Origin: Micromonospora tarapacensis | GTDB lineage: Bacteria > Actinomycetota > Actinomycetes > Mycobacteriales > Micromonosporaceae | DNA length: 64,000 bases | Direction of reading: 5' to 3' | NCBI RefSeq assembly: GCF_019697375.1 | Contig: NZ_JAHCDI010000004.1 | Location: forward strand, 3,459,324 to 3,523,323 | Shown here: piece by piece, positions 10,169 to 60,654 of the stretch | How the letters are laid out: each line of letters opens with the position of its first letter | How positions within the stretch are numbered: position 1 is the stretch's first letter | Position numbers and translations under genes: made by a program | Notes under the pieces: generated by a model | What the model was told of the DNA's origin: nothing | The model's database searches: none | The model's input: only the letters and a program-made list of their open reading frames with translations

Positions 10169-11847
10169 TCAGTACCGGTCGCCCCGGTAGCCGTAGTTGC
10201 CGCCGCGCACCTGGCCGTACGGCTCGTTGCCGTCCTCGCGGTAGCGGCTGGAACGCCGCCCCCGGTAGTCGGGTTCGGCCGGGCCACTGCGCCGGGGCGG
10301 TTCGGCCCGGCCACCCGGCTGTCCCTCGCCGCGACCACCGCCGCCGTAGACGCCGCCGCCGGAACGCCCGCCCGCCGCCGGGCCAGCGCCGGGCCGCCCG
10401 CCGTAGACGGGAGCGGCGTCGCCGCCGGGCCGGCCACCGCCGCCATACACGCCACCGCCACCCGATGCCGGGCCGGCACCGTTGCCGGCAGCGGGTCGGC
10501 CGCCGCCGTAGACGGCCCCCGACCGGCCACCGTTCGGACCCTCGCCGCCGGCAGGCCCGCGGTAGACGCCACCGGACGGCGCGCCGCCGTACACGCCGCC
10601 CCGACCCTGGTCCTGCGCCGGGCCGGACCCGTCGCGCCGACGGCCCGGGTCGCCGACGTCGCGGCTCTTGCCGGTCGGCGCCGGCCGCTTACGGGCGCGC
10701 AGGATGCCGAAGATGCCGGCGCCGACGAGCAGCGCGCCGAGCACACCGACGGTGGCGATCAGGTACGTGATGTCGTTCAGCGTCAACCCGTCGAACCACG
10801 ACCGGCCGGCCGCGTCGTCCGCCGCGTCCGGGTCGGCGGCCAGGTTCTTCGGGCCCTCCTTCGAGGGGGTGTAGCCGAGGATCTCGACCGGGTCGTCATC
10901 CTCGAAGTGACCGGTGTCGGAGACGGTCAGGAACGTCTTGCCGTCGGTCGAGTAGGCGATGGCCTCACCGAACAGGTCGGCCAGGGCGGTGACCCGGGGA
11001 GTGGTCGTGGCCAGCGCGGTGACGATGTCGCCGTTCTGGACGTCGTACTCGAAGGCGTCGGCGTAGGTGCGCAGCACCACCCGCGAACCGTCCGGAGAAC
11101 GGGCTGCGCCGGTGATCGCGACCCGGCCGAAGGTGCTCAGCGGGTTCTCGGTGTCCGTCTTCGGCAGCTCGACGTCGCCGAGCTTCTTCATCGGCACCGG
11201 GTCGGTGTCGCCGCTGGGCATCGGCCCGTCCGGGGTGAAGATCTCGGCCTTTCCGGCGGTGACCTTCGTGATGATCAACGGAACGTTGTCGTCGCCGATC
11301 ACCAGCGCCTCGGCGTCGCGGGGCTTGCCGTCGGGATACGACAGCCGGTGCAGGGTCGGCGCCTTACCGCCGCCGATCGGCATGCTCCAGACCGCCACCC
11401 GCTCGCGGCGCTGCCGACTGGTGACGTTGTCGCCGGTGTCGGCGATCCACAGGGTCTTGCCGTCCGGCGAGACGGCGACATCCTCGGTGTCGAACGGACC
11501 AGCGCCGGAGTAGCGCACCTCGCGAACGACCTCGCAGTCCTTGTTGAGGTAGAAGACCCGTTTGCGGTCGTCCCGCTCGGTGCTGTCGTTGACGACGATG
11601 TAGCCGGTCTTGGTGACCGCCAGGCCGGACAACTCACGCAGCCGGGAGTCGGTGACCGTGCACTGCTTCTTGCCGGCCGCCGTGACCGGCGGCCCGACCA
11701 CGGCGGCCGGGGTGCCGCCACCACCGGCGCGGGAGACACGGCCTTCGCCGGCGCCGTGCCGGGCGCGGCGAGCACGACACCGGTGGCCGCCACGGCGGCC
11801 CCGACGAGACCGAGGGCAACCCGGACGGAGGAGGCAGTGCGGAGCAT
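10169..11847 (-). CDS. Secreted/membrane-anchored beta-propeller-like protein with Gly-rich tail (frame broken near 11709-11712)
   Basis: The signal peptide (MLRTASSVRVALGLVGAA ... APGTAPAKAV) is in one frame from 11847. The mature protein, from about VVGPPVTAAGKKQCTV onward, continues in the -1 frame. Adding one base to the four-base run at 11709-11712 joins them into 559 codons. The body has repeated strand motifs typical of propellers (VAVSPDGKTLWIADTGDN, AARSPDGSRVVL). A single transmembrane helix (ITYLIATVGVLGALLVGAGIF) precedes a Gly/Tyr-rich VYGGG-repeat C-terminus of about 170 residues. Propeller outside, tail inside is the likely topology. Function is unknown. It lies directly after hflX on the same strand. 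Confidence 0.72.
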
Positions 11848-11899
11848 GAAAGAAGTGTCGCATGCCGCAGGTTTCCGCCGGGTCACGCTGCTGGGGCGG

Positions 11900-13366
11900 T
11901 CACCAGGCGGAACGGGCCGCCTGCACCGCGTTGCCGAACGGGGCGAGTTCGGCCGCGAGTGCCTCGTTGACCCGTACGTGCAGCATCGTGCCCTCCGGCA
12001 GGTGGGCGGTGCTGAGCACCTCACCCTGCCGGTGCAGGCGGGCCACCAGGTCACCCCGGTCGTAGGGCAGCACCACCCGTACCTCGACCGGCGGTCGCGG
12101 CAGCCGCCGCTCGATCGCGTCGCGCAGGTCGGCCATGCCGCGCCCGCGGTGCGCGGAGACGAAGATCGCCTCGGGCCAGCGCCGTTTGAGCCGCAGCAGG
12201 GTCTCCTCGTCGGCCACGTCGGTCTTGTTGACCACCAGCAGCTCCGGCAACCGGTCGGCACCGACCTCGCCGAGCACCTCGCGGACGGCGCGGACCTGCT
12301 CCTCCGGGTCGGGATGCGCGCCGTCGACCACGTGCACGACCAGATCGGCCTCGGCGACCTCCTCCAGCGTCGAGCGGAACGCCTCGACGATCTGGTGCGG
12401 CAGGTGCCGGACGAAACCGACCGTGTCGGAGAGGGTGTAGACCCGTCCGTCGGACGTGGTGGACCGGCGGGTGGTCGGGTCGAGCGTGGCGAAGAGGGCG
12501 TCCTCCACCAGCACACCGGCCCCGGTGAGCCGGTTGAGCAGGCTCGACTTGCCGGCGTTGGTGTAGCCGGCGATCGCCACCGCGGGCACCGCGTTGCGGG
12601 TGCGGCGGGCTCGTTTCGTCTCGCGTACGGTGCGCATGGCCTTGCTCTCCCGGCGTAGCCGGGCGATGCGGTGGCGGATGCGCCGCCGGTCGGTCTCCAG
12701 CTTCGTCTCACCCGGGCCACGCACGCCGACGCCACCGCCGGCGCCACCGCCCCGGCCCGACCCGCCGGTCTGCCGGGACAGCGTCTCGCCCCAACCACGC
12801 AGCCGGGGCAGGAGGTATTCCAGCTGGGCCAGCTCGACCTGGGCGCGCCCCTCCCGGCTCTTGGCGTGCTGGGCGAAGATGTCGAGGATCAGCGCGGTGC
12901 GGTCGACCACCTTGACCTTGGTGCGCTGCTCCAGGTTGCGCAGCTGGGACGGGGAGAGTTCACCGTCGCAGATGACCGTGTCGGCGCCGGCGGAGCGCAC
13001 CATGGCGCCGAGGTCGTCGACCTTGCCGCGACCGATGTACGTCGCCGGGTCGGGGCGGTTGCGCCGCTGGATCAGCCCTTCGAGCACCTGCGAACCGGCG
13101 GTCTCCGCCAGCGCGGCCAGCTCGGTCAGGGAATTCTCCGCGTCGACCTGGGTGCCCTCGGTCCAGACGCCGACGAGGACCACGCGCTCCAGCCGGAGCT
13201 GGCGGTACTCGACCTCGGTGATGTCGGTCAGCTCGGTGGAGAGACCGGGGACCCGTCGCAGCGCCTGCCGTTCGGAAAGCTCGAACTCGCCGGTGGTGGC
13301 GTCCTCGCCGGTGGTGGACTCGAGCTCGTCGTCGGGGATGGAAACGTGGGTCTCCTGGTCTCGCAA
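11900..13366 (-). CDS. hflX: GTPase HflX
   Basis: 488 aa from a TTG start with AGGAGAG upstream. It has the HflX N-terminal domain (LVGVWTEGTQVDAENSLTEL, IGRGKVDDLGAMV) and a Gly-rich linker leading to GVRGPGETKLETDRR. The G domain is complete: G1 GYTNAGKSSLLN, G3 DTVGF, G4 NKTD. HflX splits stalled 70S ribosomes, particularly under heat or antibiotic stress. A promoter-like TTGACA-17-GTACAT lies just upstream. The N-terminal 40 residues are acidic and poorly conserved, so the exact start is less certain. Confidence 0.94.
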   Translation of the reverse strand: MRDQETHVSIPDDELESTTGEDATTGEFELSERQALRRVPGLSTELTDITEVEYRQLRLERVVLVGVWTEGTQVDAENSLTELAALAETAGSQVLEGLIQRRNRPDPATYIGRGKVDDLGAMVRSAGADTVICDGELSPSQLRNLEQRTKVKVVDRTALILDIFAQHAKSREGRAQVELAQLEYLLPRLRGWGETLSRQTGGSGRGGGAGGGVGVRGPGETKLETDRRRIRHRIARLRRESKAMRTVRETKRARRTRNAVPAVAIAGYTNAGKSSLLNRLTGAGVLVEDALFATLDPTTRRSTTSDGRVYTLSDTVGFVRHLPHQIVEAFRSTLEEVAEADLVVHVVDGAHPDPEEQVRAVREVLGEVGADRLPELLVVNKTDVADEETLLRLKRRWPEAIFVSAHRGRGMADLRDAIERRLPRPPVEVRVVLPYDRGDLVARLHRQGEVLSTAHLPEGTMLHVRVNEALAAELAPFGNAVQAARSAW

Positions 13367-13390
13367 GCGTCTCTCCTGTCCGTTCTGTGC

Positions 13391-13419
13391 ATGTACCGAG
13401 CAATCCTGACATGTGTCAA
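13391..13419 (-). promoter_or_regulatory. Putative hflX promoter overlapped by a palindrome
   Basis: On the minus strand a consensus -35 TTGACA (13414-13419) is followed after 17 bp by GTACAT (13391-13396) as -10, with the start codon 25 nt further on. The -35 overlaps the near-palindrome TGACACATGTCA (13407-13418), a possible operator. Confidence 0.45.
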
Positions 13420-13542
13420 CGGCCGTCGCACCTGGTATATGCCCACCGCGTAAACAGGCAAAAGCCGGGGGCGGATGCCGGGCGTCCCGGCTGGGCGAGT
13501 AGAAATGCGGACGAGCCGTTCAGCGCCGACGGAGGGACCTGC

Positions 13543-15012
<1,470 letters not shown>

Positions 15013-15033
<21 letters not shown>

Positions 15034-15857
15034 GGCGAGTCGGCCGGTGGCGACGAGCAGGGCCGGGCCGGACAGCCAGCAGGAATCGGCCGTCACGGTC
15101 ACCGTGAGGTGGCCGCCGGGGACGTCGACGGCGACCGTGCCGACCGCCCGGCCGGCATCCCGCAGGGCCACCGCGGCGACCGCGCACGCGCCGGTGCCGC
15201 AGGACAGTGTCTCGGCGGAGCCGCGCTCGTAGACCCGCATCAGCACGTGCGCGTCGGCGTCACCGACCGGCCCGCCGGGGGCGGTGAACTCGACGTTCAC
15301 CCCGGCCGGAAAGAGGGCCGGATCGAATCCGGGCGCGCGGGTGAGGTCCAAGCCGGCCAGGTCGAGCCCCGCGGGCACCGGGCAGACCAGGTGGGGGTTG
15401 CCGACGTCCACCGCCGTGCCGGGCAGCGTCAGCCCGCCCAGGGCTGCGGCGGAGGCGCCGTAGGGCCGGGGCGGCGCATCTCGACGGCGACGGCGTCGCC
15501 GTCGACCCGCGCGTGCACGATGCCCGCCCGGGTGGCCACCGGCAGCGCACCGCGCACCGGCGTGGCCAGCCCGGCCTCCAGCAGGTACCGGACGAACACC
15601 CGGGCGCCGTTGCCGCACATCTCGGCGAAGGACCCGTCGGAGTTCCAGTAGTCCATGAACCACTCGGCCTCACCGGCCAGGGCGGCGCCGTCGGGGTGCT
15701 TCGCGGCGCGGACCACCCGCAGCACACCATCCCCGCCGATCCCGCGCCGCCGGTCGCAGATCGCCGCCACCAACTCGGGAGCCAGGTCGAGCGCGCCGTC
15801 CGGGTCGGGCAGGATCACGAAGTCGTTGCCGGTGCCGTGTCCCTTGGTGAACTCCAC
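15013..15857 (-). CDS. dapF: Diaminopimelate epimerase (frame broken at 15468-15471)
   Basis: The N-terminal half (MEFTKGHGTGNDFVILPDPD, catalytic Cys81 in MCGNGARV) is in the frame starting at 15857. The C-terminal half (PYGASAAALGGLTLPGT ... SCGTGACAVAAVAL with the second catalytic Cys) is in the next frame. One extra base in the G4 run 15468-15471 restores 281 aa, the normal length. DapF converts LL- to meso-diaminopimelate for lysine and peptidoglycan synthesis and is normally essential, so a base-calling error is more likely than a pseudogene. The GTG start lies 7 nt after the miaA stop, giving a LigB-like/miaA/dapF operon. Confidence 0.9.
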
Positions 15858-15864
15858 GTCCCCA

Positions 15865-16782
15865 TCATCGCGCAGCCTCGCCGAGGATCCGCACGGCGGC
15901 CTCGACCAGCCCCGGATCTGCCGAGTCCAGCCAGTGCACCCGGGGGTCGCGCCGGAACCAGGAACGCTGGCGGCGGACGAAACGGCGGGTGGCCCGGATC
16001 GTCTCGTCGTGCGCCTCGGCCTCGGTCAGCTCGCCGGCCAGCAGGCGCAGCACCTGCTGATAGCCGAGGGCACGGCTGGCCGTACGGCCCTCGGGCAGGC
16101 CGCGCCCCACCAGCTCGCGGACCTCGGCGACCAACCCGTCGGCCCACATCCGGTCCACCCGCACGGCGATCCGCTCGTCGAGCAGGGCGGTGTCCAGCTC
16201 GACGCCGATCTGCACGGACGGGTAGTACGGCGTGGGTTCCGGCAGCGCCGCGGTGAACGGCGCGCCGGTCAGCTCGATCACCTCCAGTGCCCGGACGATG
16301 CGCCGTCCGTTGCCGGGCAGGATTCCGGCGGCGGCTGCCGGGTCCGCCGCGCGCAGTCGGGCGTGCAGCGGCGCCGGACCGAACGCGGCCAGTTCACCTT
16401 CCAGTCGCTCCCGTACCGCCGGGTCGGTGCCGGGAAACTCGAACTGCTCCAACACCGCCCGCACGTACAGCCCGGACCCGCCGACCAGCAGTGGCACCCG
16501 GCCCCGGGCCAGGATGTCGTCCACCGCGGCCCGGGCCAGCCGCTGGTACCCGGCGACGCTGGCCGGCTCGGTGACCTCCCAGATGTCGAGCAGGTGGTGC
16601 GGCACGCCCTCGCGTTCGGCGGCGGTGAGCTTCGCCGTGCCGATGTCCATCCCCCGGTAGAGCTGCATCGAGTCGGCGTTGACCACCTCGCCGTCGAGCG
16701 CGTGTGCCAGGGCGATGCTCAGCGCCGACTTGCCCGCCGCCGTCGGCCCGACCACGGCGACCACGGTCCCCCGGTCGATCAC
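15865..16782 (-). CDS. miaA: tRNA dimethylallyltransferase MiaA
   Basis: 305 aa from GTG 16782, with GGGAG upstream. The P-loop GPTAAGKSAL, DSMQLYRGMDIGTAK, DIWEVTEP and GGSGLYVRAVLE motifs are all present. So is the C-terminal RALGYQQVLRLLAGE ... TRRFVRRQRSWFRRD. MiaA prenylates A37 of tRNAs reading U-starting codons; MiaB in this window then adds the methylthio group. The start overlaps the TGA of the upstream LigB-like gene (GTGA), so translation is coupled. Confidence 0.95.
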   Translation of the reverse strand: MIDRGTVVAVVGPTAAGKSALSIALAHALDGEVVNADSMQLYRGMDIGTAKLTAAEREGVPHHLLDIWEVTEPASVAGYQRLARAAVDDILARGRVPLLVGGSGLYVRAVLEQFEFPGTDPAVRERLEGELAAFGPAPLHARLRAADPAAAAGILPGNGRRIVRALEVIELTGAPFTAALPEPTPYYPSVQIGVELDTALLDERIAVRVDRMWADGLVAEVRELVGRGLPEGRTASRALGYQQVLRLLAGELTEAEAHDETIRATRRFVRRQRSWFRRDPRVHWLDSADPGLVEAAVRILGEAAR

Positions 16783-17508
16783 CGCCGCTCCCAGCCGGCC
16801 ACGAAGTAGCCCACCCCGTAGGGGCGGCGTGGTAGCCGAGCTCGCCGCGCCAGTCGCCGCCGGCCGCCCGCACAGCACCGGCGAGCGCCTGCCACGCCGC
16901 TCGGCCGGCGACCCTCAGTTGTGCCGACCGGGCCGGGTCCAGGCCGAGCAGGGCCTCGGTGTCCGCCTGGGCCAGCGCCCGGGCGACGCCCTCGTCGTAC
17001 GCCTCGGCCCGCGGGTCGGCGTAGCCGGGCGCCCGCTCGCCCCGGCAGGCCGACCCGTCCCCATCACCAGCAGGGCCCACGGCTGGTTCCCCGCGAGCCG
17101 GGCGCCGAGGGCGGCGCACGTCTCGACCGGTTCGTCGGCGCCGACGGTCGCCATCCGCCACCCGATGCCGCCGGTCCCGGATGGGGGCACCCGACGCAGC
17201 AGCCAGGCGCCGACGAGCAGGCTGAGCGGGAGACCGTCGGTGCCGACCCTGCCGTCCGGGAGGCCGCCGAGTCGCACCTGAAGCGGCACTCCCCACGGCG
17301 CGAAGCTGCCCCGGTAGGGGAAGGTGAGGTCGGCGCTGCGGTCGGCGGCGCCGATCACCAGGACGCTGCGGGCACCGGAGGCACAGAGCCGGGCCACCGC
17401 CGCGTCGCAGGCGGCCCGGAGGTCGTCCAGCTCCGACGCGGCGGCACCGGCCACCTCGGGGACGAGCAGCGGCGGATGGGGGCAGACGGCGGCGGCGACC
17501 AGTGGCAC
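16779..17508 (-). CDS. Class III extradiol dioxygenase subunit B-like (LigB-fold) protein (two frame breaks)
   Basis: VPLVAAAVCPHPPLLVPEVAG starts at GTG 17508. The frame runs to QPWALLVMG, then shifts at the C4 run 17059-17062 (DGSACRGERAPGYADPRAEAYDEG). It shifts again at the G4 run 16821-16824 to end YGVGYFVAGWERR. Adding one base at each run gives 243 aa, ending in a TGA that overlaps the miaA GTG, which strongly supports this reading. The CPHPPLL motif is the hallmark of the LigB-like family found next to miaA in actinobacteria. Its enzymatic role is unknown. Confidence 0.8.
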
Positions 17509-17618
17509 CAGGCAACCGTAGCGGTCCGGCGTCGCCGCGTGCCGCCGTGCACCGCGTCGCCCGGTGACCCGGTCGGGGCGCCACCGGGCGACCGAGCCGG
17601 GGTGGCGCGTTGCCGGCG

Positions 17619-18068
17619 TCAGCCGGGCTGACCGCCCCAGCCGCCCTGGATCATCGTCTGGAACCGCCACTGGCCGCCGGTGCGGACCAGCAGGTCGGCG
17701 TAGTGGACCCGCTGGGTCGCCCCGTCGATGGTGAACTCGGCGTCGGTGAAGACCACCACCAGGCTCGCGGTGAGGAAATGTGGCGTGCGCCGGGACTCCA
17801 TCGTCACGTCGCCGCCCGCGCCGAGCACGCCCCCCATCATCTCGACGTACTCCGCTCGGCTGAGTTGCCGCGCCGAGCCGTCGCCCGTGGCGTCGTCGGT
17901 GACGGTGTTGAGCGGGAACAGCGCCAGCTCGGCGGTGCCCTCGACGTCGCCGGCCGCGGCGAGGGCGTCGTACCGCCGGAACCACTCGTCGAGCGCGGCC
18001 AGGTCGTCGGGGCCTGGGACGAATCCGGGATCGGCCGGTGGGGTGAGGGTGCTGCGGGACTCGGTCAT
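17619..18068 (-). CDS. NTF2-like/SnoaL-family protein (DUF4440-like)
   Basis: 149 aa. ATG at 18068 with GAGGAGG upstream. A single cone-shaped NTF2-like domain: helix LAALDEWFRRYDALAAAGDVEG, then strands MESRRTPHFLTASLVVVFTDAEF, ending WRFQTMIQGGW. No catalytic residues can be assigned. A strong -10 and a palindromic operator lie upstream, so expression is probably repressor-controlled. Confidence 0.75.
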   Translation of the reverse strand: MTESRSTLTPPADPGFVPGPDDLAALDEWFRRYDALAAAGDVEGTAELALFPLNTVTDDATGDGSARQLSRAEYVEMMGGVLGAGGDVTMESRRTPHFLTASLVVVFTDAEFTIDGATQRVHYADLLVRTGGQWRFQTMIQGGWGGQPG

Positions 18069-18112
18069 CTGTTCCTCCTCGCCGGCGCCCGGCACGGACA
18101 CCTCGCCCGTAC

Positions 18113-18131
18113 ATTGTACGGTACGCCGTAC
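18113..18131 (-). promoter_or_regulatory. Strong -10 with overlapping palindromic operator
   Basis: On the minus strand TACAAT (18113-18118) is a good -10 for the NTF2-like gene. Directly upstream, GTACGG-4-CCGTAC (18116-18131) is an inverted repeat of the kind bound by TetR-family repressors. No TetR gene is in the window, so the regulator would act in trans. Confidence 0.45.
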
Positions 18132-18315
18132 GGCAAAAAGCGGCACGCCGACCGCATGACGTAGCCGGGGGACTAGGACACCGTATGGTCACGGTCGGCG
18201 ATAGGCGCTCGACGCGGGCCGGGGCGCACCTGTGACAATGCCCGGAGAAACTTGGCTGCGCCGTGGCGGCGCCCGGGGACTGCTCCCGGGGTGCCGGGAG
18301 AACGAGGATGGGCAC

Positions 18316-19524: not shown

Positions 19525-19553
19525 GCACGGCGGCCGAGCAGGCCGGCTGAGCA
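19506..19553 (+). repeat. 22-bp direct repeat duplicating the 3' end of the DUF349 gene
   Basis: GGCCGAGCAGGCCGGCTGAG plus CA occurs at 19506-19527 and again at 19532-19553 (period 26). The first copy includes the stop codon; the second is noncoding. This is a recent local duplication. Confidence 0.85.
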
Positions 19554-19560
19554 GGACGCC

Positions 19561-19599
19561 GCAGAGCCCCCGGTTCCCACCCGGAGCCGGGGGCTCTGC
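19561..19599 (+). terminator. Rho-independent-like terminator after DUF349 gene
   Basis: A perfect 13-bp stem, GCAGAGCCCCCGG (19561-19573) and its complement (19587-19599), with a 13-nt loop, starts 36 nt past the stop. There is no U-tract. Confidence 0.7.
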
Positions 19600-19624
19600 C
19601 GTCCATCCGGCCGCTGGTCCCGGC

Positions 19625-19990: not shown

Positions 19991-20008
19991 AGGATGAGGA
20001 GAATGACC

Positions 20009-21448: not shown

Positions 21449-21495
21449 CCCATACCGGCCGGAACCCGCACTTCTTCTGGGCTCACCCGAGATGC

Positions 21496-24094: not shown

Positions 24095-24236
24095 CACACG
24101 AGGTCGCGGGCCCCGTGGTGACGTGGCGGCCGTGGCGGGTTCGACCACCGCAGCTACCGGCGGATCCAGTCGAGGATGACCGCCTGCCTGCGGGCGGGCG
24201 GGCGGGCGCTCAAGCCTGGGGAAAGCCCGACCTAGC

Positions 24237-25738
24237 TCAGGGCGAGACGGCGCAGCCGGTCGTGGGCTCGGGCGCCGGGGCCGGCGCGCCGATCGTGGGC
24301 AGCCCCAGCAGCACCCCGGGATACGCGGCGAACGTCCCGCCTCGGCCGCGTCGCCGGCCCGGGTGCGGCGGTGCGACAGCGGCGCACCGTCGGCGTTGAG
24401 GTGGTGCGGCGCGGCGTAGGTGATCGTGGTGTGCACGATGTCGCCGGGCCGGATCGCGCCGGCGAGGGAACCGGCGTCGAAGTGCACGAGCCGCCCGTCG
24501 CGGGCCCGACCCGACATCCGGCCGGTCCGCTCGTCCTTGCGGCCCTCGCCGACGGCGACAAGCACCTCGACGGTCTCGCCGACCAGCTTCCGGTTCTCCG
24601 CCCAGGTGATCTCCTCGACGCAGGCGATCAGCCGCTCGTACCGCTCCTGCACGACCTGCTTGGGCAGCTGGCCGTCCATGGTTGCGGCCGGCGTGCCGGG
24701 GCGCTTGGAGTACTGGAAGGTGAAGGCGGAGGAGAACCGGGCCTCGCGGACCACGTCCAGGGTCCGCTCGAAGTCCGCCTCGGTCTCGCCGGGGAAGCCG
24801 ACGATGATGTCGGTGGTGATCGCCGCGTCGGGCATGGCGGCGCGGACCTTGGAGATGATCCCCAGGTACTTCTCGGACCGGTACGACCGGCGCATCGCGC
24901 GCAGCACGTCGTCCGAGCCGGACTGCAACGGCATGTGCAGCGAGGGGCAGACGTTCGGCGTCTCGGCCATCGCCGCGATCACGTCGTCGGTGAAGTCCTT
25001 CGGGTGCGGGCTGGTGAACCGCACCCGCTCCAGCCCGTCGATCTCGCCGCAGGCCCGCAGCAGCTTGCCGAAGGCGTACCGATCGCCGAACTCCACCCCG
25101 TAGGAGTTGACGTTCTGCCCGAGCAGGGTCACCTCCAGCACACCCTCGTCGACCAGGGCGCGCACCTCGCTCAGGATGTCGCCGGGGCGGCGGTCCTTCT
25201 CCTTGCCACGCAGCGCCGGCACGATGCAGAAGGTGCAGGTGTTGTTGCAGCCCACCGAGATCGACACCCAGCCGGCGTAGGTGGACTCCCGGCGGGTCGG
25301 CAGCGTCGAGGGGAAGACGTCGAGGGATTCGAGGATCTCCACCTCGGCGGCGGCGTTGTGCCGGGCGCGCTCCAGCAGCACCGGCAGCGACCCGATGTTG
25401 TGGGTGCCGAAGACCACGTCGACCCAGGGCGCCCGGCGGACGATGTCGCCGCGGTCCTTCTGGGCCAGGCAGCCACCCACCGCGATCTGCATCCCGGGGT
25501 GCCGGTCCTTGACCGGACGCAGCTGACCGAGGTTGCCGTAGAGACGGTTGTCGGCATTTTCCCGGACCGCGCAGGTGTTGAACACCATCACGTCCGGGGT
25601 GTCGTCGGCCCCGCCCGCACGGACGTAGCCGGCCTGCTCCAGCAGGCCGGAGATGCGCTCGGAGTCGTGCACGTTCATCTGGCAGCCGTAGGTGCGCACC
25701 TGGTAGGTGCGCGGGCCGCCCGCCGCTGCGGTAGTCAT
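24237..25738 (-). CDS. miaB: tRNA-2-methylthio-N6-dimethylallyladenosine synthase MiaB (frame broken at 24313-24316)
   Basis: 500 aa after adding one base at the C4 run 24313-24316, which joins ...[14 protein letters not shown] to [20 protein letters not shown] and ends at TGA 24237. Uncorrected, the frame would run more than 800 nt into unrelated sequence. The N-terminal Fe-S cysteines are in [19 protein letters not shown] and GGCLAQ. The radical SAM motif is [13 protein letters not shown] domain follows ([20 protein letters not shown]). It methylthiolates i6A37 made by MiaA. Only the C-terminal tail is affected by the break, so activity may survive either way. Confidence 0.93.
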
Positions 25739-25791
25739 GACGTGCACAGCGTAGCCGGGTCCGAGGAATCGGACGCAAACGAGGAGAAGCC

Positions 25792-41793: not shown

Positions 41794-43138
41794 TCAGGCG
41801 CTGAACCCGTCGGATGGGACCGGGCGGGCGGCCCGGGCGAGCGCGTCGGCCAGTGCCGGCAGGTCCGCCTCGTCCAGCGAACTGATGGTGATCCGCAGCG
41901 CGGGCGGGCCGGCGATGCGGTACAGGGCGCCGGGCGCGGCCAGCCAGCCGGCGTCCCGCAGCACGGTGCAGGCGACGGTCTCGTCGGTCACCGGCAGCCA
42001 GACGTTGATCCCGCTGCGACCGTGCGCCGGCAGGCCCCGGTCGGCCAGGGCGGCGACCAGCCCGGCTCGCCGCCGCTCGTAGCTGGCCGCCGCCCGGTCG
42101 ACGAGAGCTGTCACCGTCGGGTCGCGCCAGAGGGAGAGGACGAGCCGTTGCAGCACGGTAGAGACCCAGCCGGCACCGACCCGCGCCCGGCCGGCCACCC
42201 GGGCCACCGTGGTCTCGTCCCCGGCCAGCACGGCCAGGCGCAGGTCGGGGCCGAAGGGCTTGCTCACCGAGCGGAGGAAGGCCCAGTTGGCGGTGGCGCC
42301 GGCGAGCGGATGCAGCGGTACGCGGGCCAGTTCGGCGGCGTGGTCGTCCTCGATCAGCAACAGGTCGGCGCGACCGGCGAGCAGGGTGCGCAGGGCGCCG
42401 GCCCGGTCGGCGCGGACGGCGGCGCCGGTGGGGTTCTGCGCCCGGCTGGTCACGATCAGCGCCCGTGCCCCGGCCGCGAGGGCGGCGGCCACTCCCGCGA
42501 CGACCGGTCCGTCGTCGTCGACCGGCACACCGATCGGCCGCAGCCCGAGCGCGGCGAGCAGATCGAGCAGGGCGGCCCAGCCCGGATCCTCCACGGCGAC
42601 CGCGTCGCCGGGGCGGAGATGAGCGCCGAGCAGGCGCTCCATGCCGTCCAGCGCACCGCCGGTGAGGGTCACCTCGGCGGCGGGAATCCCGTCGGCGGCC
42701 AGGCGCGCCCGGGCGGCCTCGGCCAGCTCGGGCAGCACGGCGAGGTCCGGGTAGCCCACCTGGTCGCCGATGAGGTCGGCGAGGGCGGCGAGGTGCGGGC
42801 GCAGCGGCGGCAGCAGCCGTGGATCGGGTTCGCCCCGGGACAGGTCACGTATCCCGGGGCGGGTGGTGGGCGCAGCGCCGCGCGGCGGGCGGCGACCGGT
42901 GGCCGGGAGCGTATCCGGGTGCCGTGCCGACCGGCGGTGACCACGAGGCCACGGCGGCGCAGCTCGGCGTAGGCGCGGGAGACGGTGGCCGGGCTGACGG
43001 CCAGGTCGGCGGCGAGCGCGCGGACCGGGGCAGCGGGTCACCGGGGGCGAGGTCGGCGCGGCGGATGCCCGACTCGATGCTGGCCGAGATCTCGACGGCC
43101 GTCGCACCGGTCACCTGATAGCGTGCTGACACAAACAC
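41794..43138 (-). CDS. MocR-type GntR/aminotransferase-fusion transcriptional regulator (two frame breaks)
   Basis: The winged helix starts at GTG 43138 (MFVSARYQVTGATAVEIS ... APGDPLP). It continues in a second frame after 43027-43030 (ALAADLAVSPATVSRAYAEL), then in a third after 42856-42859 (GIRDLSRGEPDPRLLPPLRP). One base at each run gives 448 aa. The C-terminal class I aminotransferase-like domain keeps SRAQNPTGAAV and the PLP-Lys region RSVSKPFGPDLR. MocR proteins sense PLP and often control the divergent gene, here the FMN-barrel/GNAT fusion 28 nt away. Confidence 0.85.
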
Positions 43139-46032: not shown

Positions 46033-47099
46033 CTACCTGAGCCGGCGCACCGCGCGCGGAATCGGGTCGGTCTCGTCGTCGAACTCCCCGATGACCTCTT
46101 CGAGCAGGTCCTCCAGGGCGACGAAGCCGACGGGCCGGGCCGGGCCGCCACCGTTGCGGACCAGGGCGAGTTGGGACTGGCGGCCCCGCATCACGGCCAC
46201 GGCCTCGGTCACCGTGGCCGTGGCCGGCAGGGTGATCGCCTCGTTCAACATCTCCGCCGCGGTGGCATCGGGGCGGCTGGCGGTGGCCCGCACCGCCTCC
46301 CGTACGTGCACCAGGCCGCAGACGTCACCGGCGGCATCCAGCACCGCCAACCGGGAACGGCCGCTGTCCCGGCTGACCTGCTCGATGCGGTCCGCCGAAT
46401 CGGTGCGGCGCACCGTGACCATCCGCTCGAACGGCTCCATCACCTGGGCGACGGTGGTCTCCTGCAGTTCGAGCATGCTGGTGAGCAGCTCGTGCTGGGC
46501 GGCGCCGAGCAGCCCGTGCTCGCGGGACTGCTCCAGCAGCATCCGCAGCTCGTCGGGGCCGTGCACCTGGGCCAGCTGATCCTGCGGGTTGACCTTCACC
46601 AGCCGCAGCAGCGCGTTGGCCACCGCGTTGAGGGCCGACAGCACCGGCCGGGACACCCGGGCGAACGCCCGGAACGGCAGGGCCAGCAGCAGCGCGGAGC
46701 GCTCCGGGTGCGTGATCGCCCACGACTTGGGCGCCATCTCGCCGACCACCAGGTGCAGGAAGGTGACCAGGCTCAGCGCGAAGATCAGCGCGATTGCGTG
46801 GCTGGCGCCGTACGGCAGTCCGACGGCGTGCAGCACCGGGCTGAGCAGATGCTCGATCGCCGGCTCGGCCAGCGCACCGAGGCCCAGCGTGCACAGGGTG
46901 ATGCCGAGCTGCGCACCGGCCAGCATCAGGGACAGCTCGCGTACGCCGTCGAGCGCGGCGCGGGCGGCCCGCCCCCGCCGGCAGCCGCCTGTTCCAGCCG
47001 GTACCGCTTGCTCGCCACCAGGGCGAACTCGGCGGCGACGAAGAAGCCGTTGAGCGCCAGCAGGACCACGGAGGTCAGCAGCGCGAACCCGGCACTCAC
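46033..47099 (-). CDS. HlyC/CorC (CNNM)-family membrane protein with CBS domains (frame broken at 46972-46976)
   Basis: GTG 47099 overlaps the stop of the paralogous upstream gene. The first helix (FALLTSVVLLALNGFFVAAEF) is in one frame. After the C5 run 46972-46976 the frame changes to RELSLMLAGAQLGITLCTLG. One added base gives 355 aa. Domains: DUF21/CNNM transmembrane (1-190), then two CBS domains (about 215-330: VMEPFERMVTVRRTDSADR, LAVLDAAGDVCGLVHVREAV). The CorC_HlyC C-terminal domain is absent, as in short paralogues. Mg2+/Co2+ or general cation transport is the family role. Confidence 0.87.
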
Positions 47100-48448
47100 G
47101 CGGTCACCTCCGCGCGCCCGCCGGCCACCTGGAGGCGGACCGAGTCGGCGACGTGCCGGTCGACCGCGAGCACCTCGACCAGGGCACGCCCCGCGGTCTC
47201 GCCGTGGTCCCCGTCGGCCGGCAGGCTGATCTCCAGCCGGTCACCGACCTCCGGTACCCGGCCCAGTTCCCGCATGACCAGCCCGGAGAGGGTGTCGTAC
47301 TCGGGGTGTTCGGGCAGTGCGATGCCGGTGCTGTCGGCGACCTCGTCGATGCGCCAGCGTGCGGGAACCACCCACGACCCGTCGTCCTGCCGTGCCGGGG
47401 CCCGCTCCGGCGGATCGTCCTCGTCACGGATCGGGCCGACCAGTTCCTCGGCGATGTCCTCCAGCGTGATGACGCCGGCGAAGCCGCCGTACTCGTCGAC
47501 CACGCAGGCGAGCTGCCGATGCCCCGAGCGGAGCCGGTCCAGCACCGTGGGCAGTGGCAGCGTCTCGGGCACCAGCAGTGGCGCGCCGGCCACCGCACCG
47601 ACCTGGGTGGTGGCCCGCTCGGCCGGGGGCACCTGGAGCACGTCGGCGATGCCGACCACGCCGACCAGGTCGTCGACGCCCTCCGCACCCCGGACCGGGA
47701 AGCGGGAGCGGCCGGTGTCCAGCAGCTCGACGACCCGGCTGACCGGCTCGTCGGCCCGGACGGTGTGCACGTCGACCCGGGGCACCATCGCCTCGCCCGC
47801 GGTCAGCTGGCGGAAGTCGAGCCCGCGGTCCAGCAGTTCCGACATCTCGGCGTCGAGGTGGCCGCCCAGCCGGGACTCGGCGATGATCTGCTCCAGGTCC
47901 TCCGGGGTGGCGCCGCTGGGCAGTTCCTCGATCGGCTCGATGCCGATCCGGCGCAGCAGGCGTACCGCGGCCCGGTCGAACAGCTTGATCACCGGCCCGG
48001 CGACCGCCAGGTAGACCAGGGTGGACCGGGACAGCGCCCGGGTGACCGCCTCGGGGCGGGCGATGGCCAGGTTCTTCGGGGCCAGCTCACCCACCACCAT
48101 CTGCACGACGGTGGCGATGAACAGGGCGAGTGCGATCGACAGCGGCATGGTGACCCCGGCGGAGACGCCGGCCACGCCGAGCAGCTCGGCCAGGCCGGCG
48201 CCGAGGTAGGGCTCCGCGACGTAGCCGACCAGCAGGGCGGTGACGGTGATGCCGAGCTGGGCGCCGGAGAGCATGAACGACAGCCGGCCGCTGACCTCCA
48301 GGGCGCGGGCGGATGCCTGGTCGCCCTCGGCGGCGCGTTGCTTGAGCTTGCCCCGGTCGACCGCGACGTAGCCGAACTCCTGCGCGACGAAGTAGCCCGT
48401 CGCGACGGTCAAGAAAACGATCAGAAGAAGACCGACGAGGATCAACAC
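47096..48448 (-). CDS. HlyC/CorC (CNNM)-family membrane protein, full length
   Basis: 450 aa. GTG 48448. DUF21 transmembrane domain (ILVGLLLIVFLTVATGYFVA, LMLSGAQLGITVTALLVGYV in near form). CBS pair (VPRVDVHTVRADEPVSRVVEL, LACVVDEYGGFAGVITLEDI) and the CorC_HlyC C-terminal domain. Overlaps its shorter paralogue downstream by 4 nt, a tandem pair common in actinobacteria. Probably cation (Mg2+) efflux or regulation. Confidence 0.93.
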   Translation of the reverse strand: MLILVGLLLIVFLTVATGYFVAQEFGYVAVDRGKLKQRAAEGDQASARALEVSGRLSFMLSGAQLGITVTALLVGYVAEPYLGAGLAELLGVAGVSAGVTMPLSIALALFIATVVQMVVGELAPKNLAIARPEAVTRALSRSTLVYLAVAGPVIKLFDRAAVRLLRRIGIEPIEELPSGATPEDLEQIIAESRLGGHLDAEMSELLDRGLDFRQLTAGEAMVPRVDVHTVRADEPVSRVVELLDTGRSRFPVRGAEGVDDLVGVVGIADVLQVPPAERATTQVGAVAGAPLLVPETLPLPTVLDRLRSGHRQLACVVDEYGGFAGVITLEDIAEELVGPIRDEDDPPERAPARQDDGSWVVPARWRIDEVADSTGIALPEHPEYDTLSGLVMRELGRVPEVGDRLEISLPADGDHGETAGRALVEVLAVDRHVADSVRLQVAGGRAEVTA

Positions 48449-51404: not shown

Positions 51405-51435
51405 CGCCGCCCCCGGCGGGTTCGCGCGTGCCGGC

Positions 51436-54734: not shown

Positions 54735-54882
54735 GCGCGCTCCCGGTCGAGGTGGCCGTGGCGCCGCTCGGCGTGGAAGGGCGCCTAGCAGCGATCAGAC
54801 GACAGTTCCATGCGCGGTGGGTGGTTTTCCCGAAATAGGCCCATTTTCGCCGTCAATGCGGCAGCGACCCCGACGACCGGGT

Positions 54883-55263
54883 TCAGGAACGCGCGGTGCG
54901 GTCCGGCGGGGCGTCCACCGCGCCGCGAGCGGGCCGGCCGTCGACCACCAGGTCCGGCCGGCCGAGCTGCGACGCCGCCTTGTTGACCAGCCGCTGGGCG
55001 GCGGCCAGGGAACGCACCGACAGCAGTCGGCCGCGACTCTCCCGGCGCAGGACGAAGTAGTGCACGGCGGCCCGCACCTGCGCGCGGTCGGCCGCGCTCG
55101 CCTGCGCGGTGGAGACGACCAGCTCCCGCAGGCAGTCGGCGAGCCGCTCGGCGAGTTCCAGTTCCGGGCCGTGCAGCCCGCCACGGAGGGTGGTGACATG
55201 ACTGTCGACCTTGCGGATCAGAATGTCGGTGCCGGATCCGGAACTCCGCTCCTCGACGGCCAT
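54883..55263 (-). CDS. Hypothetical protein
   Basis: 126 aa. ATG 55263 with GGAGGGGG upstream. Helical and charged: ELAERLADCLRELVVSTAQAS, AQVRAAVHYFVLRRESRGRLL. The C-terminus is disordered. No family recognised. It sits between the antiporter operon and lhr. Confidence 0.6.
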   Translation of the reverse strand: MAVEERSSGSGTDILIRKVDSHVTTLRGGLHGPELELAERLADCLRELVVSTAQASAADRAQVRAAVHYFVLRRESRGRLLSVRSLAAAQRLVNKAASQLGRPDLVVDGRPARGAVDAPPDRTARS

Positions 55264-55443
55264 CCGACCCCCTCCGCCGCTCGCCACATCGCGGGTGAAA
55301 GTTACTTTATGTGCCCCCCTGCATGCAAGCAGTTAGAGGAGACTTAACGGATTCAACACCCAAGTCGCCTGTAACGCCTTAACGAGACATAGCCCGTCAG
55401 GCCGGCGGCGACGGATGTCGGTCCCCGGGGGCAGGATGGGGTC

Positions 55444-58400
55444 GTGGCGGATTCCAGCGCGGCGGCGACCGGCGAGCGGGCGCTCTCCCGGTTCGGCCCG
55501 GCGACCCGGGAGTGGTTCGGTGCGGCGTTCGCCACGCCGACGACGGCGCAGGTGGGTGCCTGGGACGCGGTCGCCGCCGGGCGCCACGCCCTGGTCGTGG
55601 CACCCACCGGTTCCGGCAAGACCCTCGCCGCGTTCCTGTGGTCGCTCGACCGGCTGTCCCGCGAGCCCGCGCCGGCCGACCCCCGCCACCGGTGCCGGGT
55701 GCTCTACGTCAGCCCACTCAAGGCGCTCGCCGTCGACGTCGAGCGGAACCTGCGAGCCCCCCTCGTGGGCATCCGCCACGCCGCCACCCGGCTCGCGCTC
55801 ACCCCGCCGGAGATCACCGTCGGGATGCGTACCGGTGACACCCCCGCCGACGAGCGCCGGGCTTTCGCCCGCACCCCGCCGGACATCCTGATCACCACCC
55901 CGGAGTCGCTGTTCCTGCTGCTCACCTCGGCCGCCCGGGATTCGCTGCGCGGCGTCGAGACAGTGATCGTCGACGAGGTGCACGCGGTCGCCGGGACCAA
56001 GCGCGGCGCCCACCTCGCGCTCTCGCTGGAGCGCCTCGACGAGTTGCTGCCCACCCCGGCACAACGAATCGGCCTCTCCGCCACGGTCCGGCCGCTGGAC
56101 GAGTGCGCCCGCTTCCTCGGCGGCGCCCGCCCGGTCGAGGTGGTCGCCCCGGTCACCGCCAAGACGATCGAGGTCAGCGTCCAGGTCCCGGTCGAGGACA
56201 TGACCCGCCTGGACGAGCGGGAGGCACCGGAGGACGGCCTCGCCGGTGCCCGGTCGGCGTCGATCTGGCCCGCTCTGGAGGAGCGAGTCCTCGCGCTGAT
56301 CCGGGCGCACCGCTCGACCATCGTCTTCACCAACTCCCGGCGCAGCGCGGAACGGCTCTGCGCCCGGCTCAACGAACTCGCCGCGGCGGAGACGCCCGAC
56401 CACGCGCCGGGCGCGACCGACCGTCCGGCCCGGACACCGGCGGAGATGATGGCCCAGGCCGGCGCGGTGACCGGCGCCCCACCGGTGATCGCCCGGGCAC
56501 ACCACGGCAGCGTCTCCCGGGAGGAGCGCCGGCACATCGAGGAGTCGCTCAAGGCCGGCCAGCTGCCGGCCGTGGTCGCCACCTCCAGCCTCGAACTCGG
56601 CATCGACATGGGCGCGGTCGACCTGGTCGTGCAGATCGAGGCACCACCGAGCGTGGCGGCCGGGCTGCAACGGGTCGGGCGCGCCGGGCACCAGGTCGGC
56701 GCGGTGTCGCGGGGAGTGGTCCTGCCCAAGCACCGGGGCGACCTGCTCTCCTGCGCCGTGGTCGCCGAGCGGATGGCCGACGCCGCGATCGAGGAGCTGC
56801 ACCACCCCCGCAACCCGCTGGACGTCCTCGCCCAGCAGATCGTCGCGATGGTCTCGCTCGACCAGTGGCCGGTCGGCGACCTGGCGGCGGTGGTGCGCCG
56901 GGCCGCACCCTTCGCCGAGCTGCCCGACTCCGCGCTGCACGCCGTGCTGGACATGCTCTCCGGCCGCTACCCGTCGACCGCCTTTGCCGAGCTGCGTCCC
57001 CGGCTGGTCTGGGACCGCGCCACCGATGTGCTGACCGGCCGGCCGGGCGCCCAGCGGCTCGCGGTGACCAGCGGCGGCACCATCCCCGACCGAGGGCTGT
57101 TCGGCGTCTTCCTGGCCGGGGCGCAGCGCGCCGCCCGGGTCGGCGAGCTGGACGAGGAGATGGTCTACGAGTCCCGGGTCGGCGACGTGTTCCTGCTCGG
57201 CTCCTCGTCCTGGCGGATCGAGGAGATCACGCCGGACCGGGTGCTGGTCTCCCCCGCCCCCGGGCAGGCGGCCAAGATGCCCTTCTGGAAGGGCGACCAG
57301 CCGGGCCGGCCGGTGGAACTGGGCCGGGCGATCGGCGCCCGGGTCCGGGCCCTGCTCCGCCAGGGCGACGACGAGGCGACCGGCGGGCTGCACGCCGCCG
57401 GGCTGGACGACTGGGCCGCCGGCAACCTGATGGCGTACCTGCGCGAGCAGCAGGCCGCGACCCGCGCGTTGCCCGACGACCGGACGGTGGTGGTCGAGCG
57501 GTTCCGCGACGAGTTGGGCGACTGGCGTCTCGCCGTGCACAGCGTCCTCGGGGCGCGGGTGAACGCACCGTGGGCACTGGCCATCGGTCGCCGACTCGCC
57601 GAACGCTACGGCGTGGACGCACAGGTGCTGCCCGCCGACGACGGCATCGTGGTGCGCCTGCCGGACACCGCCGACACCCCACCCGGTGCCGACGTGGTGG
57701 CCTTCGACCCCGAGGAGATCACCCAGCTCGTCGAGGAGTCGGTCGGCACCTCGGCGCTGTTCGCGTCCCGGTTCCGGGAGTGCGCCGCACGGTCGCTGCT
57801 GCTGCCCCGCCGCGACCCCCGCCGCCGCCAGCCACTGTGGCAGCAGCGGCAACGCGCCGCCCAACTACTCGACGTGGCCCGCGAGTACGCCGACTTCCCG
57901 GTCACCCTGGAGGCGGCCCGGGAATGCCTGCAGGACGTCTTCGACCTGCCCGCCCTGACCCAGCTGATGCGCGAGCTGGCCGGCCGCCGGGTGCGGCTGG
58001 TCGAGGTGGAGAGCGCCCGGCCGTCGCCGTTCGCCCGCTCGCTGCTCTTCGGTTACGTCGGCGCCTTCCTCTACGAGGGCGACGCGCCGCTGGCGGAACG
58101 CCGGGCCGCGGCACTCGCGCTGGATTCCGCCCTGCTCGGCGAGTTGCTCGGCCGGGTCGACCTGCGCGAGCTGCTCGACCCAGCGGTGCTCGGCGAGACC
58201 GAACGGCAGCTGCGCTGGCTCACCGCCCAGCGTCGCCCCCGCGACGCCGAGGACGTGGTCGAGCTGCTGCGGCAGCTCGGCGACCTGGGCACCGACGAGC
58301 TGGCCGCGCGCGGTGTGCCCGTCGACTGGCTGACCGACCTGGCCGCCGCCCGGCGGGTACTCCCGGTCCGCGTCGCCGGGCAGGACCGCTGGGTGGGCGT

Positions 58401-60018
58401 CGAGGACGCCGGCCGGTTGCGGGACGCGCTCGGTGTCGCCCTGCCGGTCGGTGTCGCCGAGGCATACCTCGAACCCGTCGCCGACCCGCTCGGCGACCTG
58501 GTCGCCCGCTACGCCCGCACCCACGCCCCGTTCGCCGCCGCCACCTGCGCGGCGCGGTTCGGGTTGGGTGTCTTCGTGGTGGAGCAGACGCTGCGCCGCC
58601 TGGCCGCGGCCGGTCGGCTGGTCTCCGGTGAGTTCACTGCGGGCACGGTCGGCACCCAGTGGTGCGACGCGGAGGTGCTGCGCCTGCTGCGGCGCCGGTC
58701 CCTCGCGGCGCTGCGCCGGGAGATCGAGCCGGTGCCGCCCCGGGCGCTGGCCACCTTCCTGCCCCGCTGGCAGCAGGTCGGCTCGTCGGCGCGCGGGCTG
58801 GAGGCGGTGGCCGCTGCCCTGGAGCAGTTGCAGGGCGCCACGGTGCCCGCGTCGGCGCTGGAGCGGCTGGTGTTGCCCGCCCGGGTCGCGGACTACTCCC
58901 CCGCGCAGCTGGACGAGCTGTGTGCCAGCGGTGAGGTGCTGTGGGCCGGCGCGGGTGCGATCTCCGGCGGGGACGGCTGGGTCAGCCTGGCCTACGCCGA
59001 CGCCGCCCCGCTGCTGTTTCCGCCGCCGGACGACACGCTCACCAGCCTCCCCCTGCACGACGCGGTCCTGGACGCCCTCGGCGACGGGCAGGCGCTGTTC
59101 TTCCGCCCGCTGGCCGACCGGGTCGGTGCCACCGACGACGCCGAACTGACCGCCGCCATCTGGGATCTGGTCTGGGCCGGTCACGTCACCAACGACACCC
59201 TGTCGCCGCTGCGGGCGGTGCTCGGTGCGGGCGGTGCGCACCGCTCCCGCCCGGCCGCGGCGCGCGGCCGTTACCGGCGCCCGGGGCGGGTGTCCCTGCC
59301 GAGCCGCGGCGGGCCGCCGACGGTGGCCGGCCGGTGGTCGCTGCTGCCGGAACGCGACACCGACCCGACCCGCCGCGCCGCCGCGCTGGCGGACGTCCTG
59401 CTGGAACGGCACGGCGTGCTCACCCGGGGCGCGGTCGTGGCCGAGCAGGTGCCCGGCGGCTTCGCCGCGGTCTATCCGGTGCTGGCCGCGCTGGAGGAGC
59501 GCGGTGCGGCCCGGCGGGGATACTTCGTCGACGGACTGGGGGCGGCCCAGTTCGCGGTGCCCGGCGCGGTGGACCGGATCCGCGCCCTGGCCGACCCGCT
59601 CGACGGTGGGCGGGCCCGGGTCGGCGCCACCGTGGTGTTGGCGGCCACCGATCCGGCCAACCCGTACGGTGCGGCGCTGCCCTGGCCGGAACGGGCCGTC
59701 GACTCCGGCGACGCGGCACCGGCGCCGGCCACCGGCCACCGGGCCGGTCGCAAGGCCGGGGCGCTGGTCGTGCTGGTCGCGGGCGGCCTGGTGCTCTACG
59801 TGGAGCGGGGCGGGCGCACCGTCCTCTCCTTCACCGACGACGAGGACGCGCTGGCCACGGCCGGAAAGGCGCTGGCCGACGCCGTGCACAGCGGCGCGTT
59901 GGGCCCGATCTCGGTGGAACGCGCCGACGGTGAGTCCGTCCGCTCGTCGCCGCTGCGCGACGCCCTCACCGCCGCCGGATTCCGCACCACCCCGCGCGGT
60001 CTCCGCCTGCGCCCATAG
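55444..60018 (+). CDS. lhr: Lhr-type ATP-dependent helicase
   Basis: 1524 aa, GTG 55444. SF2 motifs: I APTGSGKTLAAF, Ia YVSPLKALAVDVERNL, II VDEVHAVAGTKRG, III SATVRPLDECARF, IV VFTNSRRSAERLC, V ATSSLELGIDMGAVDLV, VI QRVGRAGHQVG. The Lhr-core winged helix and beta-barrel follow (to about 870). The C-terminal extension of some 600 residues matches full-length actinobacterial Lhr. Lhr is a 3'-5' translocase implicated in DNA crosslink and oxidative damage repair. Mycobacterial lhr neighbours nei2; here a nei2 remnant lies 3.3 kb downstream. Confidence 0.96.
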   Translation: MADSSAAATGERALSRFGPATREWFGAAFATPTTAQVGAWDAVAAGRHALVVAPTGSGKTLAAFLWSLDRLSREPAPADPRHRCRVLYVSPLKALAVDVERNLRAPLVGIRHAATRLALTPPEITVGMRTGDTPADERRAFARTPPDILITTPESLFLLLTSAARDSLRGVETVIVDEVHAVAGTKRGAHLALSLERLDELLPTPAQRIGLSATVRPLDECARFLGGARPVEVVAPVTAKTIEVSVQVPVEDMTRLDEREAPEDGLAGARSASIWPALEERVLALIRAHRSTIVFTNSRRSAERLCARLNELAAAETPDHAPGATDRPARTPAEMMAQAGAVTGAPPVIARAHHGSVSREERRHIEESLKAGQLPAVVATSSLELGIDMGAVDLVVQIEAPPSVAAGLQRVGRAGHQVGAVSRGVVLPKHRGDLLSCAVVAERMADAAIEELHHPRNPLDVLAQQIVAMVSLDQWPVGDLAAVVRRAAPFAELPDSALHAVLDMLSGRYPSTAFAELRPRLVWDRATDVLTGRPGAQRLAVTSGGTIPDRGLFGVFLAGAQRAARVGELDEEMVYESRVGDVFLLGSSSWRIEEITPDRVLVSPAPGQAAKMPFWKGDQPGRPVELGRAIGARVRALLRQGDDEATGGLHAAGLDDWAAGNLMAYLREQQAATRALPDDRTVVVERFRDELGDWRLAVHSVLGARVNAPWALAIGRRLAERYGVDAQVLPADDGIVVRLPDTADTPPGADVVAFDPEEITQLVEESVGTSALFASRFRECAARSLLLPRRDPRRRQPLWQQRQRAAQLLDVAREYADFPVTLEAARECLQDVFDLPALTQLMRELAGRRVRLVEVESARPSPFARSLLFGYVGAFLYEGDAPLAERRAAALALDSALLGELLGRVDLRELLDPAVLGETERQLRWLTAQRRPRDAEDVVELLRQLGDLGTDELAARGVPVDWLTDLAAARRVLPVRVAGQDRWVGVEDAGRLRDALGVALPVGVAEAYLEPVADPLGDLVARYARTHAPFAAATCAARFGLGVFVVEQTLRRLAAAGRLVSGEFTAGTVGTQWCDAEVLRLLRRRSLAALRREIEPVPPRALATFLPRWQQVGSSARGLEAVAAALEQLQGATVPASALERLVLPARVADYSPAQLDELCASGEVLWAGAGAISGGDGWVSLAYADAAPLLFPPPDDTLTSLPLHDAVLDALGDGQALFFRPLADRVGATDDAELTAAIWDLVWAGHVTNDTLSPLRAVLGAGGAHRSRPAAARGRYRRPGRVSLPSRGGPPTVAGRWSLLPERDTDPTRRAAALADVLLERHGVLTRGAVVAEQVPGGFAAVYPVLAALEERGAARRGYFVDGLGAAQFAVPGAVDRIRALADPLDGGRARVGATVVLAATDPANPYGAALPWPERAVDSGDAAPAPATGHRAGRKAGALVVLVAGGLVLYVERGGRTVLSFTDDEDALATAGKALADAVHSGALGPISVERADGESVRSSPLRDALTAAGFRTTPRGLRLRP

Positions 60019-60034
60019 GGCCGGCGGCGACGGG

Positions 60035-60654
60035 TCAGTCGAGGGCGTCGAGGGCCCGTTCGTAGCGGGAGCGGTCGGTGGGTGGGGTCGACGCCTCCAG
60101 ATAGTTGAGCACCACGGTGCCCCTGCGATAGGCGGCTCCTGCCCACACGTCGGCCAGGTCACCGGCGCTGCTCTGGTCGGGGAAGACGTACACGGCCAGG
60201 TGGTCGGTGACGACCAGTTCCGAGCAGCCCAGCCCCAGCCCGTCCGGTCCGCACTCGGCGGACCTGTCCCGCGGGTTGGCCGCCTTCAGCCCGGCGGCCC
60301 GAAAGGCCGCGACGACCTCCCGGGCCGTGGGCGCACCGTCCTGGCGCGGTGGCAGCACCACCGGCGGTGGGCTGGGCGGGCGCCGTGGCGCGCTGCCGTC
60401 GGCGTTCGGGCCGGCCGACGCCGACCGGGTGGCCGGCGTGGCCGCGGCACCGGCCGGCCCTCGGCGGCGCCCGGCGTGGCGGGGCTCGTCCCACCGCCCG
60501 GCGCGATCGGGCCGGTCGGCCGGGATGGTTGCGCCATCGAGGTGGTGTCGGGCGGCGCCGGTCCCACGGCGGGTGGCCCGGCCGGGTCGCCACCACAGGC
60601 GGCCAGCACGATCGTGACCGTGAGGACGACGGCTGGCAGGATCCGGTGGCTCAC
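60035..60654 (-). CDS. Putative lipoprotein (frame broken at 60458-60460)
   Basis: A GTG at 60654 (VSHRILPAVVLTVTIVLAAC) gives a type II signal peptide with lipobox LAAC (Cys20) and a Pro/Thr/Ser linker. At the CCC run 60458-60460 the frame moves by one base to reach the conserved part (QDGAPTAREVVAAFRAAGLK, GLGCSELVVTDHLAVYVF, YRRGTVVLNYLEAST). Adding one base gives 206 aa. The C-terminal domain is conserved-looking but unnamed. It is convergent with lhr, so it was probably inserted between lhr and the downstream genes. Confidence 0.7.

Follow-up and report, generated by a model that had tools for sequence, protein, structure and literature searches.

The residual errors of bacterial assemblies built from long reads only, as corrected by Homopolish, Kastor and Polypolish, are, in the portions of the reports considered here, mostly one-base deletions in homopolymers (PMC12007338, PMC8011154, PMC8812927), and the systematic errors that remain are mainly homopolymer indels, i.e., insertions or deletions, which shift reading frames (PMC8011154). 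In the same portions, errors of the deletion type are said to come after runs of two to eight bases, most frequently four to five (PMC12007338). A similar pattern, mostly of one-base losses that are strongest at runs of four to five and break genes that are intact in related genomes, is described here for nine single-base frame breaks in seven genes of Micromonospora tarapacensis. These lie in a stretch of 64,000 nucleotides (assembly GCF_019697375.1, contig NZ_JAHCDI010000004.1, positions 3,459,324 to 3,523,323), which is referred to as the window and is located within a contig of 5.64 Mb (C4) in a genome of 6.9 Mb and four contigs. Judging from the comparison of assembled sequences, the nine breaks are very probably residual consensus errors in the assembly. 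Frame errors specific to Micromonospora assemblies were not found in the titles and abstract openings of the papers listed (12 of 16).

The recent pseudogenes of actinomycetes offer another parallel, as they also consist of coding genes with single-base frame breaks. Here, however, housekeeping genes are broken, no relaxed selection is seen, and the breaks are not shared with the relatives that were aligned.

Frame breaks in seven genes

The seven genes are the following, all on the minus strand:

10169..11863, minus strand, propeller or phytase-like gene, with a break near 11709-11712 in the variable N-terminal part (ends from an earlier note on this DNA and the list of open reading frames, ORFs)
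15013..15857, minus strand, dapF, diaminopimelate epimerase, in two open frames with a break near 15463-15471; the sole copy found in the genome
16779..17584, minus strand, LigB-like gene directly upstream of miaA, broken twice, near 16821-16824 and near 17059-17062 (approximate 5' end)
24235..25747, minus strand, miaB, whose break near 24313-24321 is beyond the family match, in the C-terminal tail (approximate 5' end)
41794..43107, minus strand, MocR-type regulator with an aminotransferase-like domain (PF00155, in the long fragment), with breaks near 42850-42859 and 43027-43030
46033..47100, minus strand, CNNM/CBS-domain membrane protein of the HlyC/CorC type, with a break near 46969-46976 (5' end approximate)
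60031..60654, minus strand, lipoprotein gene with a Pro/Ala/Gly-rich linker, in which the break lies at about 60458-60461 (ends approximate, the upper one from the earlier note)

The nine breaks claimed in the earlier note are all present, the window being one base short in the frame each time, and the shift has the same sign in nine of nine. G/C runs are found at the nine coordinates, except that the interval given as 24313-24316 opens with an A, its C4 run lying one base later. When the window was aligned, with frame steps allowed and counted, to proteins taken from open frames in four relatives, a step of one missing base was obtained at or near eight of the nine sites, with two to four relatives per site. 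All four relatives gave this step in dapF, in miaB, at both MocR sites and in the CorC-type gene; at the propeller break it was seen with three (G003, G007 and G002, at positions 11711 to 11756), and in the LigB-like gene with three at 16821-16824 (G003, G007, G012) and with two at 17063 (G007, G012), the steps against the protein of G007 falling at 16824 and 17063. G007, the relative used most, is the nearest one, at a nucleotide identity of about 89.6%. The scan also gave further steps in the window, often close to an ORF start or to another step, and relative-to-relative pairs give similar extra steps. At 8244-8281 of the window there is a compensated pair against G007, in a relative protein of 1,162 residues, the frame being left for a short stretch and then regained, which could arise by natural divergence.

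The comparison with homologues that the earlier note had proposed was made in two further ways. In nucleotide alignments the window is net one base short for dapF in 21 of 21 subjects, for the LigB-like site at 16821-16824 in 21 of 21, for miaB in all 17 alignments that span the site, and for each MocR site and the CorC-type gene in four of four; at 17059-17062 a clean one-base gap is present in just six of 16 subjects, the other ten having more gaps nearby, and variability prevents a clean nucleotide alignment in the regions of the propeller and lipoprotein genes. The sharing of the breaks was then considered for each protein separately, with 17 named loci and three further genomes as subjects. 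There was no step in 17 of 17 aligned relatives for the propeller gene, none at the site in 20 of 20 subjects for dapF, none in 20 of 20 other subjects for the LigB-like gene, and none at the sites in three of three for both the MocR and CorC-type genes; for miaB there was none in 16 of 16 aligned subjects, some of these alignments being short, so that they may end before the site. Thus, no homologue with a break at the same place was found among the relatives that could be aligned.

For dapF, the PF01678 match in this genome is split between two open frames, of 198 and 218 residues, whereas in 37 of the 37 other genomes with a match the gene is unbroken, with both PF01678 pieces in frames of the same length, of at least 278 residues (one of the 37, G032, is a weak match in an odd frame of 1,908 residues, and three more genomes have no match). 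The orthologue in G007 passes TIGR00652 (DapF). No second copy was found in the genome by the PF01678 profile search, nor was the meso-DAP dehydrogenase domain PF16654 found in it.

In miaB, the G007 orthologue has 576 residues, of which 88-523 are covered by the TIGR01574 (MiaB) match; the step falls at residue 549, so that the tail alone is affected. Steps at residues 64-69 occur in L008, L017 and G012, as in the window; given that they precede the start of the match at 88, they lie in over-long ORF starts. The name of the LigB-like gene is the label of the earlier note, since the G007 orthologue has no NCBIfam match at 1e-10, and the window fragment has no family match either. An overlap between the LigB TGA and the miaA GTG was proposed there, and in G007 the LigB-like gene ends in a TGA overlapping a GTG. 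The likely true start of miaA (window 16782) is the GTG overlapping the LigB-like TGA, some 32 codons further downstream than the first start offered by the listed ORF. In the scanned collection, the named sequences most closely related to miaA are from Verrucosispora/Micromonospora.

The propeller gene has a weak match to the Pfam Phytase-like family (E 0.001), below the cut-off, and the MocR orthologue in G007 matches MocR-like models below their cut-offs. The long fragment of the CorC-type gene carries PF01595 and PF00571 and, among the matches listed (best 120 of 302), is covered by homologues of 354-355 aa. The open frames in G007 are of 285 (dapF), 446 (MocR), 355 (CorC) and 567 aa (propeller), close to the repaired lengths of 282, 449, 356 and 560 given in the earlier note.

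For the lipoprotein gene, in which a LAAC lipobox can be read by eye, a -1 step at 60461 comes from a separate alignment to the intact protein of G007, i.e., from one relative and in a variable linker, and one flank, with nine of 22 residues identical, is too weak to pass the flank filter used for the other sites. The halves are in two frames here and in one frame in G007 (170113-170901 of the joined stretch). G012 could be aligned and gave no step, although under this filter the window gave none either, and G003 has two steps near the ORF start.

Base losses and run length across the assembly

Three regions of two contigs were compared with G007 by a nucleotide scan for isolated one-base events at a flank identity of 80%, namely C4 3.28-3.68 Mb (400 kb around the window), C4 0.6-0.8 Mb (200 kb) and C3 0-140 kb (140 kb), which together make up 740 kb of the 6.9 Mb; 100 kb of C4 at 5.0 Mb and 20 kb of C1 are outside all counts. 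In 396,721 aligned coding bases there were 43 isolated losses against six gains (losses of 34, 4 and 5 and gains of 5, 1 and 0, in 260,875, 56,796 and 79,050 bases, respectively). This excess of deletions over insertions, and their spread over the assembly irrespective of gene function, are what is expected of long-read homopolymer consensus errors. Six relative-to-relative comparisons, used as controls, gave seven losses and no gains in 283,854 bases. Isolated losses thus occur once in 9.2 kb of coding sequence in this assembly and once in 40 kb in the controls (p = 1.2e-5). Five of the six control pairs, at an identity of 82-83%, were passed through a 70% flank filter, which lets more events through; at their divergence the isolation rule also removes more events, and the control figures combine both effects. 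In the reverse direction, with the ORFs of this assembly as the frame, G007 is without a base in seven places in 369,769 bases.

In the region around the window, a looser filter at the protein level, with compensated clusters removed, gave 59 events (48 losses, 11 gains), compared with the 34 losses and five gains of the nucleotide scan. The protein-level scan as a whole gave 77 events in 266 genes (56 losses, 21 gains), of which 58 (46 and 12) passed a strict filter.

The losses depend strongly on run length. When the gap-free G/C runs in coding DNA are taken together with the 43 losses, on the assumption that the lost base belonged to the run, the losses per run of one to six bases are 2/136,649, 3/61,126, 6/13,719, 9/2,687, 20/504 and 3/71. 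The share lost rises from about 0.001% for a run of one, through 0.04% for three and 0.3% for four, to 4% for five and six, which is a three- to twelvefold climb per added base up to runs of five.

The proposal that one added G or C repairs each run is weak evidence in itself, as the base of the relative extends the run in 17 of the 38 losses that touch a G/C run of two to five and not in 21. By the length of the run in the window (two, three, four and five), it does so in 5/6, 4/9, 8/20 and 0/3 of these losses, whereas the proportions expected from divergence are 0.746, 0.578, 0.457 and 0.294. Judged against this expectation (for a window run of four, 8/20 against the 0.457 that divergence predicts for real runs of five), the mismatch between run and relative does not count against under-calling.

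A global collapse of homopolymers was rejected. Runs of five number 131.5 per 100 kb here, 129.5 in G007 and from 142 to 264 in three other relatives, so that the run-length spectrum is like that of G007, although at the low end of the four relatives. It follows from the uncollapsed spectrum that just about 4% of the runs of five are affected, and a loss of 4% at this length predicts the resemblance to G007.

The earlier note had also placed five of the nine breaks in CCCCGG or its complement. This is true by the letters, but the preference is not significant (p = 0.12), given that 853 of the 2,678 coding runs of four share the context. In the larger sample, C4 followed by GG occurs at nine of the 20 losses in runs of four, whereas 142 of 484 runs of five and these 853 runs of four have it (p = 0.10), and CCCCGG was rejected as an error motif. 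The miaB site (24313-24325, minus strand) and the first MocR site (42850-42866, plus strand) share the 12-mer CGTATCCCGGGG. At both sites the base before CCC also differs from that of G007, which may reflect clustered errors or natural substitutions.

Selection and rival explanations

Under-calling of homopolymers predicts breaks throughout the assembly, mostly losses, at a rate that rises with run length, and all three are seen, which supports the preference of the earlier note for systematic under-calling over gene loss. Sequencing and assembly would have dropped one base from a small share of the short G/C runs, and the correction of the assembly would have been incomplete. The attribution to long reads in particular is inferred from the 6.9 Mb assembly in few contigs and the published error profiles. 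Gene loss fits badly, as housekeeping genes are broken, no second dapF was found, the breaks are unshared at the alignable sites and the ratio of nonsynonymous to synonymous divergence (dN/dS) is unchanged.

Cells are expected to need dapF, smc, dnaX and recG. The broken genes belong to families of varied function, including DapF, SMC, DnaX, RecG, GlnD, ribonuclease D, YloV and allophanate hydrolase, in a scan of 36 of the 38 affected genes (the other two span stretch borders); in an FtsK-like gene and in MiaB the break is outside the matched stretch, and one of the two DnaX breaks is in the tail. Measured against G007, dN/dS has a median of 0.199 in the 37 broken genes considered, which may include a few probable false positives, and of 0.204 in 362 intact genes (p = 0.87). 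The median is 0.217 before the break and 0.198 after it (36 genes downstream), so that the relaxed selection expected of pseudogenes past the break is not seen.

Several observations weigh against the reading of the breaks as consensus errors. The evidence is indirect, coming from the comparison of assembled sequences. With the more distant relatives, six losses were counted in 61,874 bases against G003 and five in 40,846 against G002, and just two in 48,687 against G012, which is not above the controls at that divergence. The loss rate is uneven, with 34 per 261 kb near the window and nine per 136 kb far from it (p = 0.044), and of the 34 near-window losses at least three, which precede the family matches of recA and amt, probably fall outside genes. 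The protein-level scan is noisy, its reverse giving 76 events, 50 of them strict (18 losses and 32 gains in G007). In non-coding DNA nine runs are shorter by one and seven longer by one, too few for a bias, and the run-length spectrum is without visible depletion. In the portion of the Kastor paper considered here A/T runs dominated (PMC12007338), whereas the run-length results here cover G/C runs, A/T runs of three or more being rare.

Differences in coverage are a possible cause of the higher loss rate near the window. Among the matches listed for the fragments of dapF (best 120 of 244) and CorC (best 120 of 302) there was no second isolate of the same species, in a protein database that is clustered at 90% and could hide one; the best of these listed matches have an identity of 86% over 69% of the dapF fragment and of 94% for CorC.

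The main rival is slippage in vivo, which would make the breaks real and very recent frameshifts and the genes many young pseudogenes. Longer runs should favour slippage as well, and the unchanged dN/dS is also compatible with very recent biological breaks. Slippage ranks as the main rival because the actinobacterial NucS repair leaves indels uncorrected, according to the portion of a review considered here, which states that NucS cannot correct them (PMC8228993). On the other hand, 43 losses per 397 kb of coding sequence extrapolate to hundreds of lesions genome-wide, and so many simultaneous breaks, with genes expected to be needed among them (dapF, smc, dnaX, recG), are not credible; losses also exceed gains by 43 to 6, no break is shared with the relatives at alignable sites, and this explanation is accordingly held to be very unlikely. 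Recoding, in which the breaks are real in the DNA but are bypassed on GGGG/CCCC through slippage in transcription or -1 frameshifting by the ribosome, would account for the G/C run of four that touches 20 of the 43 losses and for the purifying selection that still acts on the sequence past the break. The same genes are, however, in frame and unbroken in the relatives aligned, and no frameshift is needed at the 2,678 other runs of four where the coding DNA aligns without gaps; the conservation of the break in orthologues that programmed frameshifting leads one to expect is contradicted by the absence of a step at the sites in the relatives aligned (for the lipoprotein, G007 only is informative), and its probability is next to nil. 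Scarcely more plausible is the broader possibility of a natural indel mutator, or of routine -1 bypass on short G/C runs, with real breaks that leave hundreds of genes, among them housekeeping genes, simultaneously broken yet working.

A different kind of rival keeps the breaks as errors and ascribes them to sequence-specific basecalling, at a modified base in a CCCCGG-like motif, in place of a general homopolymer effect. The presence of C4 followed by GG at five of the nine window sites and in nine of the 20 run-of-four losses, and the 12-mer CGTATCCCGGGG shared by two break sites and seen nowhere else in the 740 kb of the assembly searched, speak for it; neither excess reaches significance (p = 0.12 and 0.10), the context is found in just one of the nine run-of-three losses and the loss tracks run length, which leaves this explanation unlikely.

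Consequences for the genes and the genome

Under the reading of the breaks as residual consensus errors, the living cell most likely has all seven genes in intact form. The breaks look like a matter of data quality and not of biology, and the genes do not look dead. In the sample, a false frame break would occur about once in every 9 kb of coding sequence, which extrapolates to hundreds in the assembly. Given this, gene absence, pseudogene counts, protein lengths and any claimed lack of dapF, smc or comparable genes in this genome should not be trusted before a check with accurate reads.

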